NCBI GenBank assembly: GCA_013695145.1 | Contig: JACDBB010000007.1 | Span: 1-44,754 of the forward strand | Length of the DNA: 44,754 bases | Origin: Euzebyales bacterium | GTDB lineage: Bacteria; Actinomycetota; Nitriliruptoria; Euzebyales; Egibacteraceae | Direction: 5' to 3' | Part shown: in pieces, positions 8,619-41,874 of the stretch | How the letters are laid out: each line of letters opens with the position of its first letter | How positions within the stretch are numbered: the first letter of the stretch is position 1 | Translations under genes and position numbers: made by a program | The notes under the pieces: model-generated | The model's input: only the letters and a program-made list of their open reading frames with translations | Database searches by the model: none | What the model was told of the DNA's origin: nothing

Positions 8619-9313
8619 TGCTGGGCCGCGGCCTCGTCGTCGGCGCGGGCCGCGAGCCCCGCCGGGTCCAGCTTGTAGCCGACGCCCCGGACGGTGACGA
8701 TCAGCGACTCGTACTCGGCCCCGAGCTTCGCGCGCAGCCGTCGGATGTGGACGTCCACGGTCCGCGTGCCGCCGTAGTAGTCATAGCCCCAGACCTCCTG
8801 CAGCAGCTGCGCCCGGGTGAAGACTCGCCTGGCGTTGCCCGTGAGGTACCTGAGCAGCTCGAACTCGCGGTATGTGAGGTCCAGCGGCACCCCGTGCAGC
8901 CGCACGACGTACGTCTCCTCGTCGATGTGCAGCTCGCCGAAGGTGGAGGCCCGCGCGCGCCGCTGGTCGCCGGACCGCTCGACGGCGATGCGCAGGCGGG
9001 TCTCGACCTCCGCCGGTTGCGCGGCCGGCACGACCCAGTCGTCGAAGCCCCAGGTCGCCTTCAGCGCCGCCAGAGCCGCGTCGGCGATCACCACCAGGAC
9101 CGGGCAGCCGCGGTCGGAGGTCGCGACCGTCCTGCAGGCGTGCGAGGCCCGGCCGAGGTCGCCCGTCGCGTCGACCAGCACCAGGTCGACCGAGCCCGCG
9201 GCGTCCGCGCTGCCGTCCAGCGCCTGATGCGCGAGGCTGTGGTCCAGGTACTCCAGCGCGGGCAGCAGCGCTTTCCCCCCGCCGGGGGCGTCGGAGAGGA
9301 CGAGCAGGTGCAC
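8615..9313 (-). CDS. glnR: GlnR-like nitrogen response regulator (OmpR family)
   Basis: A 232-residue orphan regulator. The receiver-like domain (1-115) contains GCPVLVVIADAALAALKATW and GFDDWVVPAA, matching actinobacterial GlnR. It retains D48 but lacks a full acidic phosphorylation pocket, as GlnR does. The winged-helix half has LDLTYREFELLRYL, RVFTRAQLLQEVWGYDYY and GGTRTVDVHIRRLRAKLG, nearly the GlnR consensus. GlnR controls ammonium assimilation genes under nitrogen limitation. No histidine kinase is adjacent. Close proximity to mshD is also known in mycobacteria (recalled), which supports the assignment. Confidence 0.9.
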   Translation of the reverse strand: MHLLVLSDAPGGGKALLPALEYLDHSLAHQALDGSADAAGSVDLVLVDATGDLGRASHACRTVATSDRGCPVLVVIADAALAALKATWGFDDWVVPAAQPAEVETRLRIAVERSGDQRRARASTFGELHIDEETYVVRLHGVPLDLTYREFELLRYLTGNARRVFTRAQLLQEVWGYDYYGGTRTVDVHIRRLRAKLGAEYESLIVTVRGVGYKLDPAGLAARADDEAAAQH

Positions 9314-9379
9314 CGTGGTGCCTCCTTCCGCTCTCGGTCGCGCCTGGCGTCACGATAGCCGAGCCTGGAGGGAGGGCCT

Positions 9380-36372: not shown

Positions 36373-37175
36373 GCCGTTCCGGCTCCGCCCAGCGGCCCCA
36401 GCCCGACGACGGACTCGCTGATCACCTGGCCGTCACCGGCCTGGCCGGCTGGGTGGCGACCAGCCCCGCCAGCACGCTGACCAACTGCTCAAAGCTCGTC
36501 GAGGGCGACCCCCGCTACACGTTCGGACTCTCCGACTGGCGGGACACCAGCCTGCGCGAGGCTGTCGACGCGGTGCGAGCGCTGTGCGGCGGCGACCCCG
36601 GCGGCGCGGCCGAACAGCACGGCCGCGGATGGATCGACCCGAAAGCCACCTTGGCCGGGGCGTCGAGACACCGTGACGTCCTGGCATCGTTGACCGCGGC
36701 CGGCGGTGGGCGTGTCCTGATCGCGACGGGCCACCCTACCGGGCTGCTCGGGCACTACCTGGCGCTGGCCCGGTCACTCCAAGCGCACGGTTGCCTGCTG
36801 GTCACCCCGCTCGACGACGTTGTGCTCGACACCGCGCCCGACGGTCGGCCCCGCTCGCTGCGCTTCATCGACGGTGTCGGCGCCGTCTCCGACGGCGGCT
36901 CGCTGCGGCACACGCATCGCAGCACCTTCATGGAGGCGGCCCTGGACGCGCTCGGCGGCGCCCGCGCGGTCGACCTGGTCATCGGTGACCACGGCATGGC
37001 GGGGGCGGCCATCGAGCGCGGCATCCGGACCCTGTCCATCGCCGACGTCAACGACCCGGCGCTGCCGCTCGCCCAGGTCCGCGGCCGGACCGACGGTGTG
37101 CTGGTGATGGACGATAACATCGCCCCCCGCGCGTACGTGCCGCTCACGAACCTTCTGCTCGACTGGGACCGGTAG
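36369..37175 (+). CDS. Actinobacterial phosphatase-family protein
   Basis: A 268-residue protein of an actinobacteria-specific family annotated as phosphatase. Blocks are TNCSKLVEGDPRYTFGLSDW, GGGRVLIATGHPTGLLGHYL, RHTHRSTFMEAALDAL, and DLVIGDHGMAGAAIERGIRT followed by a C-terminal VMDDNIAPRAY. The conserved His and Asp residues suggest a metal-dependent phosphoester hydrolase. The substrate is unknown. The GTG start overlaps the acuC stop (GTGA), and the pairing implies a shared role. The family name is recalled, not searched. Confidence 0.75.
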   Translation: MSRSGSAQRPQPDDGLADHLAVTGLAGWVATSPASTLTNCSKLVEGDPRYTFGLSDWRDTSLREAVDAVRALCGGDPGGAAEQHGRGWIDPKATLAGASRHRDVLASLTAAGGGRVLIATGHPTGLLGHYLALARSLQAHGCLLVTPLDDVVLDTAPDGRPRSLRFIDGVGAVSDGGSLRHTHRSTFMEAALDALGGARAVDLVIGDHGMAGAAIERGIRTLSIADVNDPALPLAQVRGRTDGVLVMDDNIAPRAYVPLTNLLLDWDR

Positions 37176-37222
37176 TGCGAGCGCGGCTACCGACCGGCCG
37201 AGCCACAGCCAGGGGGAGACGC

Positions 37223-38806
37223 GTGCAACGGATCGTCGTGCTCGCGCTCGCCGGCGTGGTGGTCGTGGCCGTTGCCGCCGCTCCGGTCGCGGCACAGCCC
37301 GACGGGGGCGGCAGCCTCTCCGGAACGGTTTCCGGCCGCGACGGCGCCGCCCTTCCAGGCGCGCTCGTCACCGTGGTCCTCGACGAAGGCGACCCGGCCT
37401 GCCCCGACGACACGGACTGCCCCGAGACGGTCACGACGACCACTGCCGAGGACGGCACCTGGACGGTCGGCGACCTCCCCGAGGGCGCGGTCTTCGTCCA
37501 CGCGGCGGACGCCGACGGTGCGGCGGCGGACGCGTGGTGGCCCGATGACGGCGTCCCGACCGAGCCGGTGCCGGTCGCAGCTGACCAGGAGACGACAGGG
37601 ATCGACTTCGAGCTGCCCGCGGCCGCGACGGTCACCGGGCAGGCCGTCGATGCGGCAGGACGGCCGGTGTCCGACGCACAGGTGACGGTGCGCCGCACGT
37701 TCTTCTCCGCCATGGAGACCGCCACGGCCGCAGACGGGCGCTTCACGCTGTCCGGGCTGCGGGGCGCCACCCACACGGTGACCGTCGCCGCGCCCTCGGA
37801 CGACCTGCTCGACGGCGAGTTCGAAGTGATCCTCGAGGAGGGGGGGACCGCCGACGTCCGCGTGGTCCTCGACCCGGCCACCGTCGCCGTCACACGGGTG
37901 TCCGGAGCGAATCGCCTCGCCACCGCCGTCGCGGCGGCGCAGCACGGCTGGCCCGACGGGTCGGCGACGGTCGTCATCGCCGCAGCGGGCGCCTTCCCGG
38001 ATGCGCTCGCGGCAGCGCCTCTGGCCACCGCGGTCGGCGGTCCGCTGCTGCTCGTAGGGCCACGCACGGCGGCGGAGGTGCTGGCCGAGGTCGACCGGCT
38101 CGGCGCGACGGAGGCCGTGATCGTCGGCGCGGTCGGGGCAGTCCCGCTGATCGTGGGCAGCGAGCTCGACCGCGCCGGGGTCGCGGTGCGGCGCATCGCC
38201 GGCGACTCGCGCGCTGACACCGCGGCGCTGATCGCTCGTGAGGTCGGCGCGCCCGCCGGCGAGGCCATCGTGACCAGCGGTGACGTGTTCGCCGACGCGC
38301 TCTCGATCGCCCCCCTGGCGGCAGCGGAGGGCGTGCCGATCCTCTTGACCGCCCGCGACCAGCTCGCGCCCGACACCGCCGAGGCGCTGCGCGACCTCGG
38401 CGTCGAGCGCACCCTGGTGATCGGCGGGACCGGTGCGGTCACCGACCAGGTCGCCGCTGGGTTGCCTTCCCCCACGCGTGTGGCGGGGCGGAACCGCTTC
38501 GAGACCTCGGTCGCGGTCGCCGACCTCGCCCTTGACCGGGACCTGGAGCCGCGCACCGTCCACCTGGCCACGGGGTTCGACTATCCCGACGCGCTGGCGG
38601 CAGGACCGGTCGCGGCCCGCGCCAGGGGCGCGCTGCTCCTCGTCGACGGCAGCGACCCCGCCAACGCCGGAGTGGTCTACGACTGGCTGGCCGCCCGCCG
38701 TGACGACATCTCCGGCGGCGTCGCCTTCGGCGGCACCGCCGCGATCAGCGCCGCGACGCTGGAGCGCTTCGCCGACGCCATCGGCGCAGGGCAGGGGCCG
38801 GGCTGA
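37223..38806 (+). CDS. Secreted cell-wall-binding-repeat protein with carboxypeptidase regulatory-like domains
   Basis: A 527-residue exported protein. The GTG at 37223 is chosen over 37175 because GGGGGAG precedes it and the signal peptide MQRIVVLALAGVVVVAVA with an AQP cleavage region follows at once. Residues about 30-105 and 110-190 are two CarboxypepD_reg-like beta domains (GSLSGTVSGRDGAALPGALV, ATVTGQAVDAAGRPVSDAQV). The rest is about three PF04122-type repeats (VSGANRLATAVAAAQHGWPD, FPDALAAAPLATAVGGPLLL, VAGRNRFETSVAVADLAL). It should be held on the cell surface. It precedes the MauE-like gene with a one-base overlap. Confidence 0.93.
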   Translation: MQRIVVLALAGVVVVAVAAAPVAAQPDGGGSLSGTVSGRDGAALPGALVTVVLDEGDPACPDDTDCPETVTTTTAEDGTWTVGDLPEGAVFVHAADADGAAADAWWPDDGVPTEPVPVAADQETTGIDFELPAAATVTGQAVDAAGRPVSDAQVTVRRTFFSAMETATAADGRFTLSGLRGATHTVTVAAPSDDLLDGEFEVILEEGGTADVRVVLDPATVAVTRVSGANRLATAVAAAQHGWPDGSATVVIAAAGAFPDALAAAPLATAVGGPLLLVGPRTAAEVLAEVDRLGATEAVIVGAVGAVPLIVGSELDRAGVAVRRIAGDSRADTAALIAREVGAPAGEAIVTSGDVFADALSIAPLAAAEGVPILLTARDQLAPDTAEALRDLGVERTLVIGGTGAVTDQVAAGLPSPTRVAGRNRFETSVAVADLALDRDLEPRTVHLATGFDYPDALAAGPVAARARGALLLVDGSDPANAGVVYDWLAARRDDISGGVAFGGTAAISAATLERFADAIGAGQGPG

Positions 38807-39375
38807 TGGCGATGGTGGCTGCGTGGCTGCTCGCGGCGGTGTTCGGCACCGCCGGCATCGCCAAGCTCCTCGCTCCCGAAGCCACCGCGGCGTCCTTCCG
38901 CGCGCTGGGCGTGCCCGGTGCCGGGCCCGCCGCGCGGGGGCTGCCGCTGGTCGAGGTCGCGATCGCGGGGCTGCTGGTCGTCAGTCCACGCGCTGGCGGT
39001 GTCGCCGCCCTGGTCGTTCTGGCCGGGTTCACCGGGTTCCTCGCCGCCCGCCTCGCAGCTGGCGTGCGCGCAGACTGCGGCTGCCTCGGCGCCGCCAAGC
39101 CACTGTCAAGGGCGACGTTGCTCAGGAACGGTCTCCTCGCCGGCCTGGCGTCCGCGGTGATCGTCACGCCGGCAGGGGGCCCGGGCGTGGCCGATGTCGT
39201 CCTCGTCGGCACGACGGTCGCGCTCGGTGCGGTGCTGCTCGCGCTGGCCGACCTCAAGGTGAGCGTCGGCCGCGTGTGGGACACCGACACGCCAGGTCGT
39301 CAACCGCCGGACGCGGACCGGCACTCCGCCGTGCCGCGGGGCCGGTACGCGCAAGCGGGAGAGGAGCGGCGGTGA
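38806..39375 (+). CDS. MauE/DoxX-like membrane redox protein
   Basis: A 189-residue protein with four to five membrane helices (AWLLAAVFGTAGIAKLL, VEVAIAGLLVV, GVAALVVLAGFTGFLAARL, and later ones) and the MauE-type cysteine motif ADCGCLGA after helix 3. In methylamine utilisation operons MauE works with MauD to form the six disulfides of MauA. It starts within the stop of the cell-wall-binding-repeat gene and overlaps the thioredoxin-like gene by 4 bases. The C-terminal 50 residues are a polar cytoplasmic tail. Confidence 0.85.
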   Translation: MAMVAAWLLAAVFGTAGIAKLLAPEATAASFRALGVPGAGPAARGLPLVEVAIAGLLVVSPRAGGVAALVVLAGFTGFLAARLAAGVRADCGCLGAAKPLSRATLLRNGLLAGLASAVIVTPAGGPGVADVVLVGTTVALGAVLLALADLKVSVGRVWDTDTPGRQPPDADRHSAVPRGRYAQAGEERR

Positions 39376-39857
39376 GCGGGGGAGTGTGGGTCGCGTCATA
39401 CGTGTTGTTGTGGGTGGCCGTCGTCGTGCTCGCGTTCGCCGTCGTGGTGCTGCTGCGCCAGATCGGTGTGCTGCACACCAGGCTGCGGCCCATGGGCGTG
39501 CACTTCGCCGGTGAGGGGCTGCCCGTGGACACGCGCGCCCCCGATGTCGGGGTCGCGTTCGACGCGCGGGATCTCACACTGGTCATGTTCACGTCGCCGA
39601 CGTGCACGGTGTGCGCCGCGCTCCTGCCTGCGCTTCGGGCGCTGGAGCGCGAGTACACCGACACGGGGGTGGTGACCGTCGAGCACTCCGACGCCACCCA
39701 GCCGACGTTCCGCGCCTACAACGTCAGCTCCACCCCCTACGTCGTCGCGGTCGATGCCCAGGGGCACGTCCGCGGCGGTGGTGTCGCCAACTCTTTGGAG
39801 CAGGTCGAGGAGCTCATCGCGACCGCTCGCGCCCACGAGCATGAGGTGGAGGCATGA
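39372..39857 (+). CDS. MauD-like membrane-anchored thioredoxin
   Basis: A 161-residue protein: one N-terminal membrane helix (YVLLWVAVVVLAFAVVVLL), then GVHFAGEGLPVDTRAPDVG as in MauD, and a thioredoxin fold with active site TSPTCTVCAALLPAL (C78, C81). The cis-proline loop is YNVSSTPYVVAVD. MauD is thought to be a disulfide isomerase or oxidase for MauA. It sits between the MauE-like gene and the MauA-like fusion, with 4-base overlaps on both sides, giving the order E-D-A as in mau operons. Confidence 0.87.
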   Translation: MSGGVWVASYVLLWVAVVVLAFAVVVLLRQIGVLHTRLRPMGVHFAGEGLPVDTRAPDVGVAFDARDLTLVMFTSPTCTVCAALLPALRALEREYTDTGVVTVEHSDATQPTFRAYNVSSTPYVVAVDAQGHVRGGGVANSLEQVEELIATARAHEHEVEA

Positions 39858-41245
39858 CGGAACCCTCCGGCGGCCGGGCTGCGCGGGAAGGCACTCCGCA
39901 CAGCATCGACGAGCTGGTCGAGCGTGCGGGCCGCTGGACCGCCGGACGCACGACACGGCGCAGCTTTCTTGGCCAGCTCGGCCGCCTCGGCGTCCTGGTC
40001 GCCGGTGGCGCGGGCATGGCCACGCTGCTCGCGGATGTCGCCTACGCGCGGGTGTGCGGCCAGTCCGGCGTCGCGCCCAAGTGCGACACGTTCACCTGCA
40101 ACGAGACCTGGGGCTGGTGCTGGTACGCCTCGGGTTGCTGCGCTGACGGCGCCCTGAAGAAGATCTGCGACTGCTGCGCACCCAACACCCCCAACCCGGT
40201 CGGATACTGCCCATCGGGCACCCAGGTGCTGTGCATCGTCGAGAGCTGCGGCGCGGACCCGCGCCTGCAGACCAAGCCGACCGTCGTGCTCGACGAGACC
40301 GATCCGACCCGCCTGACGGTGGCGGTGTCGCGACGTGTGTACCCCGATGGCGCGGCGCTCGCCGTGATCGGTGACGCCGAGTCCGCGCTGTTCGGCGCGG
40401 TCGCCGCCTCCGCGGCGCGACTGGCCGACGGGCCGGTGCTGCTCACGCCGCGCGCCGGTCTGCACGGCGCCGTCGCCGAGGAGCTCGGGCGCCTGCGCGT
40501 CGAGTTCGTCAAGGTGATCGGCTCGACGCTGTCCCCGGCGGTGGACGCGGAGCTCGCCGCTCGAGGCATCCACGTCGAGCGCGTCGGGAACAGCACGGAC
40601 GCGGGCGACTTCTCCGCCGAGGTCGCCGCGTGGAGCCGTGGGCTGACCGGCGGTCGCACCGGCGTGGTCGTCATGCCCGGCGCTGCGCAGCGGGTGGTCG
40701 GCCCGGCGGCGGCCCTGGCCAACGCCCTGCGGCTGCCGCTGTTGCTCGGCGACTCGGCCGCCGTCCGTGAGGCGCTGGCGAGTCCGCGCCCGGTTCGGCG
40801 CACCTACGTGGTCACCGACGACCCGGCCGCCGCCGACAGCTGGCCAGGCGGCACGCCGGTGACGGGCGGGGACCCCGTCGAGCTGTCGGTCGCGATCGCC
40901 GACGTCGTCGTGGGCCTGCGCGGTGGGGTGCCGTCGCCGATGACGCTCGCGCAACCAGAGACCGACCGGGCGGCGGTGGCCATGGCGACGGTGCCCGGAC
41001 CGCTGTTGCTGCACCCGCCTGGGCAGCTCGGGCCGGTGTTCGACTGGGTGTTGCGCCATCGCGCCGCGCTGGACGGCGCGCTGGTCTCCGGAGGCGGTGA
41101 CGCGTTCGGGTCGCCGCCCACCTACGACCTCCAGGCGGTCCTCAACGAGTTCGAGACCCACCTGCTCAGCGGGCAGGCGGGGGAGGGGCTGCCCGTCATC
41201 CCCCAGCCGCGCGAGGAGCGGCCGATCGGCAAGGCACGCCGATGA
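39854..41245 (+). CDS. Tat-exported fusion of a 12-cysteine MauA-like domain with cell-wall-binding repeats
   Basis: A 463-residue protein. The twin-arginine signal TTRRSFLGQLGRLGVLVAG begins at residue 33. Residues 68-132 hold twelve cysteines (68, 77, 82, 89, 95, 96, 105, 107, 108, 119, 127, 132) in text such as CNETWGWCWYASGCC and ICDCCAP, the number needed for six disulfides as in MauA. Three tryptophans (86, 88, 90) cluster there. From about 150 on it has degenerate PF04122-like repeats (PVLLTPRAGLHGAVAEELGR, VKVIGSTLSPAVDAELAARG). It looks like the client of the preceding MauE and MauD. TTQ cofactor formation is unproven: no MauG is present here. Confidence 0.85.
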   Translation: MTEPSGGRAAREGTPHSIDELVERAGRWTAGRTTRRSFLGQLGRLGVLVAGGAGMATLLADVAYARVCGQSGVAPKCDTFTCNETWGWCWYASGCCADGALKKICDCCAPNTPNPVGYCPSGTQVLCIVESCGADPRLQTKPTVVLDETDPTRLTVAVSRRVYPDGAALAVIGDAESALFGAVAASAARLADGPVLLTPRAGLHGAVAEELGRLRVEFVKVIGSTLSPAVDAELAARGIHVERVGNSTDAGDFSAEVAAWSRGLTGGRTGVVVMPGAAQRVVGPAAALANALRLPLLLGDSAAVREALASPRPVRRTYVVTDDPAAADSWPGGTPVTGGDPVELSVAIADVVVGLRGGVPSPMTLAQPETDRAAVAMATVPGPLLLHPPGQLGPVFDWVLRHRAALDGALVSGGGDAFGSPPTYDLQAVLNEFETHLLSGQAGEGLPVIPQPREERPIGKARR

Positions 41246-41304
41246 CGTGGCTCGCGGTGCTCCTGGCCGCGCTGGCCGGGCTGCGGGTGCTCTGGTCGCC
41301 CTGA
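41242..41304 (+). CDS. Candidate 20-residue membrane peptide
   Basis: A short ORF whose ATG overlaps the stop of the fusion gene (ATGA). It reads MTWLAVLLAALAGLRVLWSP, a single hydrophobic helix. The stop-start overlap is identical in form to those joining the genes before it. It could be a small membrane subunit, or the N-terminal remnant of a lost gene. Confidence 0.4.
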   Translation: MTWLAVLLAALAGLRVLWSP

Positions 41305-41325
41305 GGCCTGTCCGTCACTGAGACG

Positions 41326-41874
41326 GTGACGCCCTCGGTCAGGGGGCGGCGGAAGGCGGTCGTGGCGGCAGCCCTGCTGGGCAGCGCCGTCGCCACCGGC
41401 GGGCTGGTCGGCTTCGCCTCCGGCGTCCTGGGGCTCATCGTGGGTCTGCCCGCCGTGGCCGAGCCGGTGACGCGCGTGGTGGTCGCGGCCGCCCTGCTGG
41501 CCGATCTGGGCTACCTCCTGTGGGGCCGCCCGCGCCCGTGGGCGGTCAATCGCCAGGTTCCGGTCGAGTGGTCGGACCTGTTCAGCCCAGCCGCCGTCGC
41601 CATGCTCTACGGCGCACGGCTGGGGGTGGGGCCGCTGACGATCCTGCCCTCCTGGCTGTGGTGGGCGAGCATGGTGGTCGCGGCCGCCACCGGTCCGGGG
41701 GTGTCCGCGGCCGCCGGCCTCACGTTCGCCGCGGTGCGGGTGCTGGTGATGGTCATCGTCGCCGAATGGCTCCGCCACGCGGCGCCCGCGCGGATGGCAC
41801 GGCTGCGCCGCGCGCATCCCATGGTGGCGGCGGTGGTCCTGCCGGTCGCGTTGGGCGCGCTGCTCGTCGCGTGA
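41326..41874 (+). CDS. Uncharacterised polytopic membrane protein of the Mau-like cassette
   Basis: A 182-residue protein with about five membrane helices (VVAAALLGSAVATGGLVGFA, VTRVVVAAALLADLGYLLWG, PAAVAMLYGARLGVGPLTIL, VSAAAGLTFAAVRVLVMVIV, and a C-terminal one) and no cysteine, so it is not itself a DsbD/CcdA redox relay. A GTG at 41326 begins it, 21 bases after the small membrane peptide. Position at the end of the cassette suggests a membrane partner, possibly analogous to MauF, but similarity to MauF is not evident to me. Confidence 0.65.
   Translation: MTPSVRGRRKAVVAAALLGSAVATGGLVGFASGVLGLIVGLPAVAEPVTRVVVAAALLADLGYLLWGRPRPWAVNRQVPVEWSDLFSPAAVAMLYGARLGVGPLTILPSWLWWASMVVAAATGPGVSAAAGLTFAAVRVLVMVIVAEWLRHAAPARMARLRRAHPMVAAVVLPVALGALLVA

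Follow-up and report, generated by a model that had tools for sequence, protein, structure and literature searches.

Genes for MauE and MauD belong to the set that introduces the disulfide bonds of methylamine dehydrogenase, and they have also been described outside the context of that enzyme. In Streptomyces, the decRiPPter study found mauE and mauD next to genes for cysteine-rich products where methylamine dehydrogenase is absent, and the excerpted text of that study reads these regions as clusters for ribosomally synthesized and post-translationally modified peptides, or RiPPs (PMC7794033). A described mechanism for MauF, the third member of the set in Paracoccus denitrificans, was not found, nor did the literature, subscription papers and preprints aside, yield a prior description of MauE or MauD with selenoproteins or of a selenocysteine (Sec)-containing mauF. 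Here we analyze a gene unit at positions 38806-41874 of a 44,754-nucleotide stretch from a Euzebyales bacterium (contig JACDBB010000007.1; the whole stretch is called the window), which lies on contig C169 of an actinobacterial draft genome of 3.3 Mb and 94% completeness. The unit encodes a MauE-like protein, a MauD-like protein, an exported protein with twelve cysteines (the 12-Cys protein) and a predicted membrane selenoprotein homologous to MauF (Sec-MauF).

The unit is probably a Mau-type extracytoplasmic disulfide module that operates without methylamine dehydrogenase, in which MauE, MauD and Sec-MauF are coupled to a wall-anchored 12-Cys domain. The evidence, all of it at the level of sequence, consists of the gene order, an in-frame UGA with a predicted selenocysteine insertion sequence (SECIS) and cysteine-containing homologues, the homology to MauF, the presence of a predicted Sec machinery, twelve invariant cysteines, and the absence of MauB and MauG. 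This combination of Sec-MauF with a wall protein appears to be undescribed. The features are as follows, with Tat denoting twin-arginine translocation.

38806..39375, + strand: mauE-like gene, for a DoxX/MauE redox-associated membrane protein with four transmembrane segments and a CGC motif (PF07291, E=1.1e-21)
39372..39857, + strand: mauD-like gene, for a membrane-anchored extracytoplasmic thioredoxin with CTVC (TIGR02661, 5.4e-22)
39854..41245, + strand: gene for the Tat-exported 12-Cys protein with a C-terminal CWB2-type wall-binding region (twin-arginine leader, invariant cysteines, Foldseek)
39947..40036, + strand: MauA-like long twin-arginine leader, TTRRSFLG... (TIGR02659 leader matches, hhalign leader alignment)
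40055..40249, + strand: 12-Cys domain, residues 68-132, the proposed relay substrate
40277..41242, + strand: CWB2-type wall-binding region with the conserved tail GEGLPVIPQP.EERPIG (fold comparison, tail conservation)
41242..41874, + strand: gene for Sec-MauF, a predicted membrane selenoprotein of 210 residues; its start codon overlaps the preceding stop (ATGA)
41302..41304, + strand: in-frame UGA, predicted to be read as selenocysteine (U21, in LWSP-U-GLS; TGA and TGC homologues, Cys in MauF)
41330..41348, + strand: predicted bacterial SECIS hairpin CGCCCUC-GGUCA-GGGGGCG, loop 32 nt past the UGA, -12.6 kcal/mol
37175..38806, + strand: secreted CarboxypepD_reg/CWB2 protein (Pfam), upstream neighbour outside the conserved unit

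An earlier note on this DNA had ended the unit with a 20-residue membrane peptide followed by a separate membrane protein. These are a single reading frame, which starts with the ATG at 41242, contains the TGA at 41302-41304 and ends at the true stop at 41872-41874. The relatives that were looked at first (G014, G285, G311 and G061) all have the same TGA. The Cys domain, scanned against 84,980 species genomes, was found at 26 loci, nearly all of them in metagenome-assembled genomes of Acidimicrobiia and other Actinomycetota, and TGA stood at the Sec codon in 24 of the 24 Acidimicrobiia-type loci with downstream DNA, under a search pattern that permitted other residues. Profile searches in the phylum added about 15 further TGA loci with a shorter Cys protein and no wall anchor (group B), as well as three homologues with TGC (L057, L060 and L061), and a later comparison brought more TGA members and a fourth homologue that translates to Cys at the Sec position. 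The total is about 42 distinct TGA loci, and neither TAA nor TAG was found among the homologues whose codon was read. Protein conservation runs unbroken on both sides of the UGA: the residues directly past it (G22 L23 S24, E27 T28 and P31) are near-invariant in 30 proteins, Cys forms included, and the predicted structure of the read-through protein, spanning the UGA, has a mean predicted local distance difference test score of 93. The split membrane reading frame, when searched by itself against Pfam and NCBIfam, gave only a meaningless match to MerT.

Bacterial SECIS elements are recognized as a hairpin 16-37 nt downstream of the UGA with a G in the apical loop (PMC13188914). The hairpin loop here begins 32-33 nt past the UGA and carries an apical (G/C)GU. 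A hairpin of the published kind is present at 37 of 41 loci, where 9.9 would be expected under synonymous recoding; windows taken from other parts of these genes contain one in 22% of cases, and none of the three TGC homologues has one. Furthermore, the stem covaries, with 89% of cells paired as against 37-62% when the stem is slid, and the pair at UGA+31/+39 is maintained in 41 of 41 loci by five different pair types. The window genome, searched for three components of the Sec machinery, has tRNA-Sec (68 bits), SelB (287 bits) and SelA (2e-134). SelA occurs in 19 of 20 genomes with the Sec operon versus 216 of 377 other genomes of the phylum (Fisher p=6e-4, uncorrected for relatedness), and the lone Sec-operon genome without a SelA match is 68% complete. 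Four lines thus agree in predicting that the UGA encodes selenocysteine: Sec/Cys exchange, the covarying SECIS, the Sec machinery and the association with SelA. The Cys-type MauF homologues are L058 and the three TGC loci, of whose genomes two have no SelA.

A similar frame occurs on a plasmid of the cultured bacterium Thermomicrobium roseum DSM 5159 (NC_011961; L090:8744 and L090:717-1169), where an in-frame UGA in ALWSP-U-GYSMVDVLGP lies just upstream of the annotated coding sequence 8756-9349 and adjoins MauE and a MauA-like protein that matches PF02975 (9e-9). It is a candidate for an unannotated Sec-MauF.

No NCBIfam 20.0 model matches Sec-MauF, and its profile gave only chance dehydrogenase matches in the PDB. 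The profile comparison with methylotroph MauF is decisive for its predicted identity: hhalign aligned 187 columns at 99.1% probability (E=1e-18), with a score of 126 compared with at most 21 for column-shuffled MauF. The WSPCG cysteine of MauF aligns with the Sec, and the QVP, LYG and LG motifs are common to both. Because the window genome has no MauB, being needed for methylamine dehydrogenase biogenesis, the hallmark of MauF proper, does not hold here, and the homologue must serve something else rather than act as a functional equivalent. Sec-MauF is encoded together with mauE and mauD, and in the f12 genomes (L038, L042, L050 and L051) Sec-MauF and MauE are fused in one polypeptide (PF07291, 2e-18 to 2e-24), which is direct evidence for a joint function. 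In many Acidimicrobiia (L065-L084, e.g. L069:7410-8897) Sec-MauF is extended at its C-terminus by some 250 conserved, extracytoplasmic residues, with a Cys resembling a lipobox at the end of the last membrane helix; this extension is absent from the window.

The genes upstream of Sec-MauF are as the earlier note described them, with MauE (CGC), MauD (CTVC) and a Tat protein with exactly twelve cysteines, and adjacent genes from mauE through the 12-Cys gene overlap by 4 nt each. The MauE-like protein scores 77.9 bits against PF07291 (cutoff 27) and is the sole MauE in the genome; its CxC is kept in 20 of 20 homologues where it was read, and the CxxC of MauD in 25 of 25 where readable. The twelve cysteines (68, 77, 82, 89, 95, 96, 105, 107, 108, 119, 127 and 132) are all invariant in 25 homologues, as are W86 and W90, and the tail GEGLPVIPQP.EERPIG is conserved as well. 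The order MauE-MauD-Cys-(Sec)MauF is found in about 25 loci and recurs across Acidimicrobiia and other Actinomycetota. In G014 (L013:6675-8024) the gene for an IS110-type transposase sits between mauE and mauD. A contig labelled as an Acidobacteria metagenome-assembled genome (L085) bears the same module, of actinobacterial type, through either transfer or mis-binning, and a supposed homologous locus (G013/L011) proved to be a false match to a MoxR-like region.

The fusion of the cysteine-rich domain to wall-binding repeats, also put forward in the earlier note, stands at the level of fold and falls short in sequence. The C-terminal region of about 300 residues has no Pfam CWB2 (PF04122) match in the window protein, and that of L010 reaches 24.3 against a cutoff of 24.9; the AlphaFold model of this part matches the CWB2 modules of Clostridioides difficile Cwp6 and SlpA with a Foldseek probability of 1.00 and E down to 1e-13. 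A second architecture was found in G032 (L102:6134-10407), a genome of the same class. There, MauE stands with a MauD-like protein and a MauF whose frame contains a UGA, and the Tat-exported Cys-rich protein carries five LGFP repeats (PF08310, 1.7e-33), a wall-binding module different from CWB2. Two unrelated wall anchors beside the same machinery support the idea of a wall-anchored product. The mature part of the G032 protein, NTCPPGSYAAGWW...YVIDCN, is MauA-like by eye and by no model, and a reading of G032 (L012) as a mere Tat-leader match was rejected in view of the LGFP fusion.

The repeat protein that the earlier note placed before mauE is real but does not belong to the unit. The product of 37175-38806 is a genuine CWB2 protein with three repeats (Pfam, 1.2e-44), and among the homologous loci searched it has a counterpart in G014 only, so it was rejected as a member. 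The whole window genome has 63 CWB2 matches, an unusually high number, and CWB2-type wall proteins are common there.

The more specific suggestion of a MauA-like domain found no support in profile comparison. TIGR02659 scores the 12-Cys protein at 27 bits (cutoff 197), with the likeness mostly in the Tat leader, and in group B the leader alone matches; PF02975 does not match the 12-Cys protein, and the 12-Cys domain had only chance coronavirus-spike matches in the PDB. The domain may still descend from MauA. The absence of MauB and MauG from the window, remarked on at the outset, extends to the whole genome and to ten other genomes with the module (11 in total); a Paracoccus record that served as the positive control was detected, by the MauG model only below its cut-off.

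How such a unit might work can be outlined as follows. The genes for MauE, MauD and Sec-MauF would be translationally coupled to that for the Tat-exported 12-Cys domain with its CWB2-type anchor. MauD, through its CxxC, may exchange thiols with the exported domain, and the CxC pair of MauE together with the single Sec of MauF may carry electrons across the membrane. The relay would then oxidise or proofread six expected disulfides in the 12-Cys domain, which, once bonded, would be retained in the wall. For the domain itself we favour a role as a structural or redox-stable wall module. The earlier idea that the MauE-MauD pair oxidises a repurposed MauA-like wall module is therefore retained in part: a Mau redox set, with MauF added and the order kept in about 25 loci, has a wall-anchored Cys-rich protein as its dedicated partner; the MauA identity finds no support, and the disulfide function is what we infer from this arrangement.

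Several points weigh against this scheme. The mature 12-Cys domain aligns with mature MauA at an hhalign probability of only 3-8%, which column-shuffled MauA equals. The MauD-like protein scores 78 bits against TIGR02661, whose equivalog cutoff is 188.6, and is thus MauD-like rather than an equivalog. No second conserved Cys was found in Sec-MauF, where the Sec alone is conserved, so the two-cysteine shuttle of the CcdA type is not directly applicable and its partner in the relay can only be guessed at. Tat export usually takes folded proteins, and most homologues come from metagenome-assembled genomes. Finally, the direction of the relay may be oxidising (MauE/DoxX, quinone-linked) or reducing and isomerising (CcdA-like); the sequence accommodates either, and both direction and substrate are inferred.

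Some of these points bear on an alternative in which the pathway is reductive and Sec-dependent, as in CcdA or DsbD. MauD, kept reduced, would then act on the 12-Cys wall protein by reducing or isomerising incorrect disulfides and would not introduce disulfides itself. Sec enzymes are usually reductive, which favours this alternative, as do the weak matches of Sec-MauF to DsbD_2 (PF13386; 7.6e-4 and 0.0025) and its top PDB fold, CcdA 5vkv, a likeness that is suggestive only (probability 0.89, E=0.063). However, the second cysteine of CcdA is absent, the best DsbD_2 match reaches 19.9 bits against a gathering cutoff of 24.9, and the kinship of MauE with DoxX suggests a quinone-linked oxidative path. 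We regard a reductive pathway as possible though doubtful. It is less easy to see the Cys protein as a precursor from which a RiPP or other disulfide-rich peptide is made for export, the role proposed for the Streptomyces mauE/mauD clusters. There, according to the excerpted text, mauE and mauD lie beside precursors that have 8 or more Cys (PMC7794033), and the group B proteins, small (about 125 residues when mature) and unanchored, would fit such a role. The group A domain, in contrast, is fused to a wall-binding region of 300 residues and has a Tat leader, and inspection of the unit's conserved genes revealed neither a protease nor an ABC exporter, making this explanation improbable.

The remaining two alternatives concern single elements. 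The earlier note had left open a tryptophan-derived cofactor, and the 12-Cys protein could be envisaged as a repurposed MauA on the wall that carries tryptophan tryptophylquinone (TTQ) or a similar redox cofactor, given its MauA-type leader, its operon and the invariant W86 and W90. Such a cofactor is unlikely because the position of the TTQ Trp57 (SWVASC in MauA) is occupied by Cys/Ile here (C-I-V-E-S-C), the second half of TTQ is absent, and there is no MauB or MauG; with a single W in the corresponding stretch of group B and a mature domain unsupported by profile comparison, the proposal as a whole is highly unlikely. The UGA might also be a true stop, in which case the 20-residue peptide would be complete and the membrane protein would begin independently at the GTG at 41326. 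Conventional gene calling yields precisely these two open reading frames, and T. roseum is annotated likewise, but the unbroken conservation, the TGC homologues, the covarying SECIS, the Sec machinery and the lack of any TAA or TAG make this extremely unlikely.

A selenoprotein family that seems not to have been described would have stayed hidden because annotation splits its gene at the UGA. The 2026 catalogue of prokaryotic selenoproteins lists 119 families in its Table 1, none of them a Mau protein (PMC13188914). The tie between selenocysteine and MauF marks the single residue expected to carry the chemistry of MauF, whose function thereby becomes testable, and U21, CGC, CTVC and the twelve cysteines offer defined targets. 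The Mau accessory set would, by implication, serve exported Cys-rich domains in general as a disulfide machine, beyond the assembly of methylamine dehydrogenase. A still broader proposal, which could equally well prove right or wrong, is that a widespread, dedicated actinobacterial selenol/thiol relay of Sec-MauF, MauE and MauD spans the membrane and builds disulfide-rich wall-bound domains independently of methylamine dehydrogenase, whose biogenesis would be a specialised offshoot of a wider route to disulfides in exported Cys-rich proteins.

The unit resembles several known systems, each in a different respect. With the C. difficile wall proteins Cwp6 and SlpA it shares the wall-binding fold of the C-terminal region, which here is below the cutoff in sequence and is fused to a 12-Cys domain. 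With CcdA and DsbD, Sec-MauF shares an (S/G)PC/U motif that opens an N-terminal membrane helix, but it has a single chalcogen residue, its later helix lacks the partner Cys, and it falls below the Pfam cutoff. TsoB (a Rhodanese/DsbD fusion) and other prokaryotic selenoproteins in the catalogue are likewise membrane or redox selenoproteins with predicted bacterial SECIS elements, whereas Sec-MauF has the motif PUGLS in place of CxxU or UxxC (PMC13188914). The Streptomyces clusters have mauE and mauD adjoining a Cys-rich product without methylamine dehydrogenase, and MauF, selenocysteine and a wall-binding fusion are not reported in the excerpted text (PMC7794033). The 12-Cys protein is like MauA (TIGR02659/PF02975) in its long twin-arginine leader, its twelve cysteines and its position directly after mauE-mauD, and differs in scoring far under both cutoffs, in lacking Trp57 and the second half of the cofactor, and in its CWB2 fusion. 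Compared with the mauF-mauE-mauD genes of P. denitrificans (L091), the Cys of MauF is replaced by Sec, the context of MauB, MauG and amicyanin is missing, the Cys protein is wall-anchored and mauF comes last instead of leading the operon, but the same three families stand beside a Tat-exported Cys-rich protein in both.

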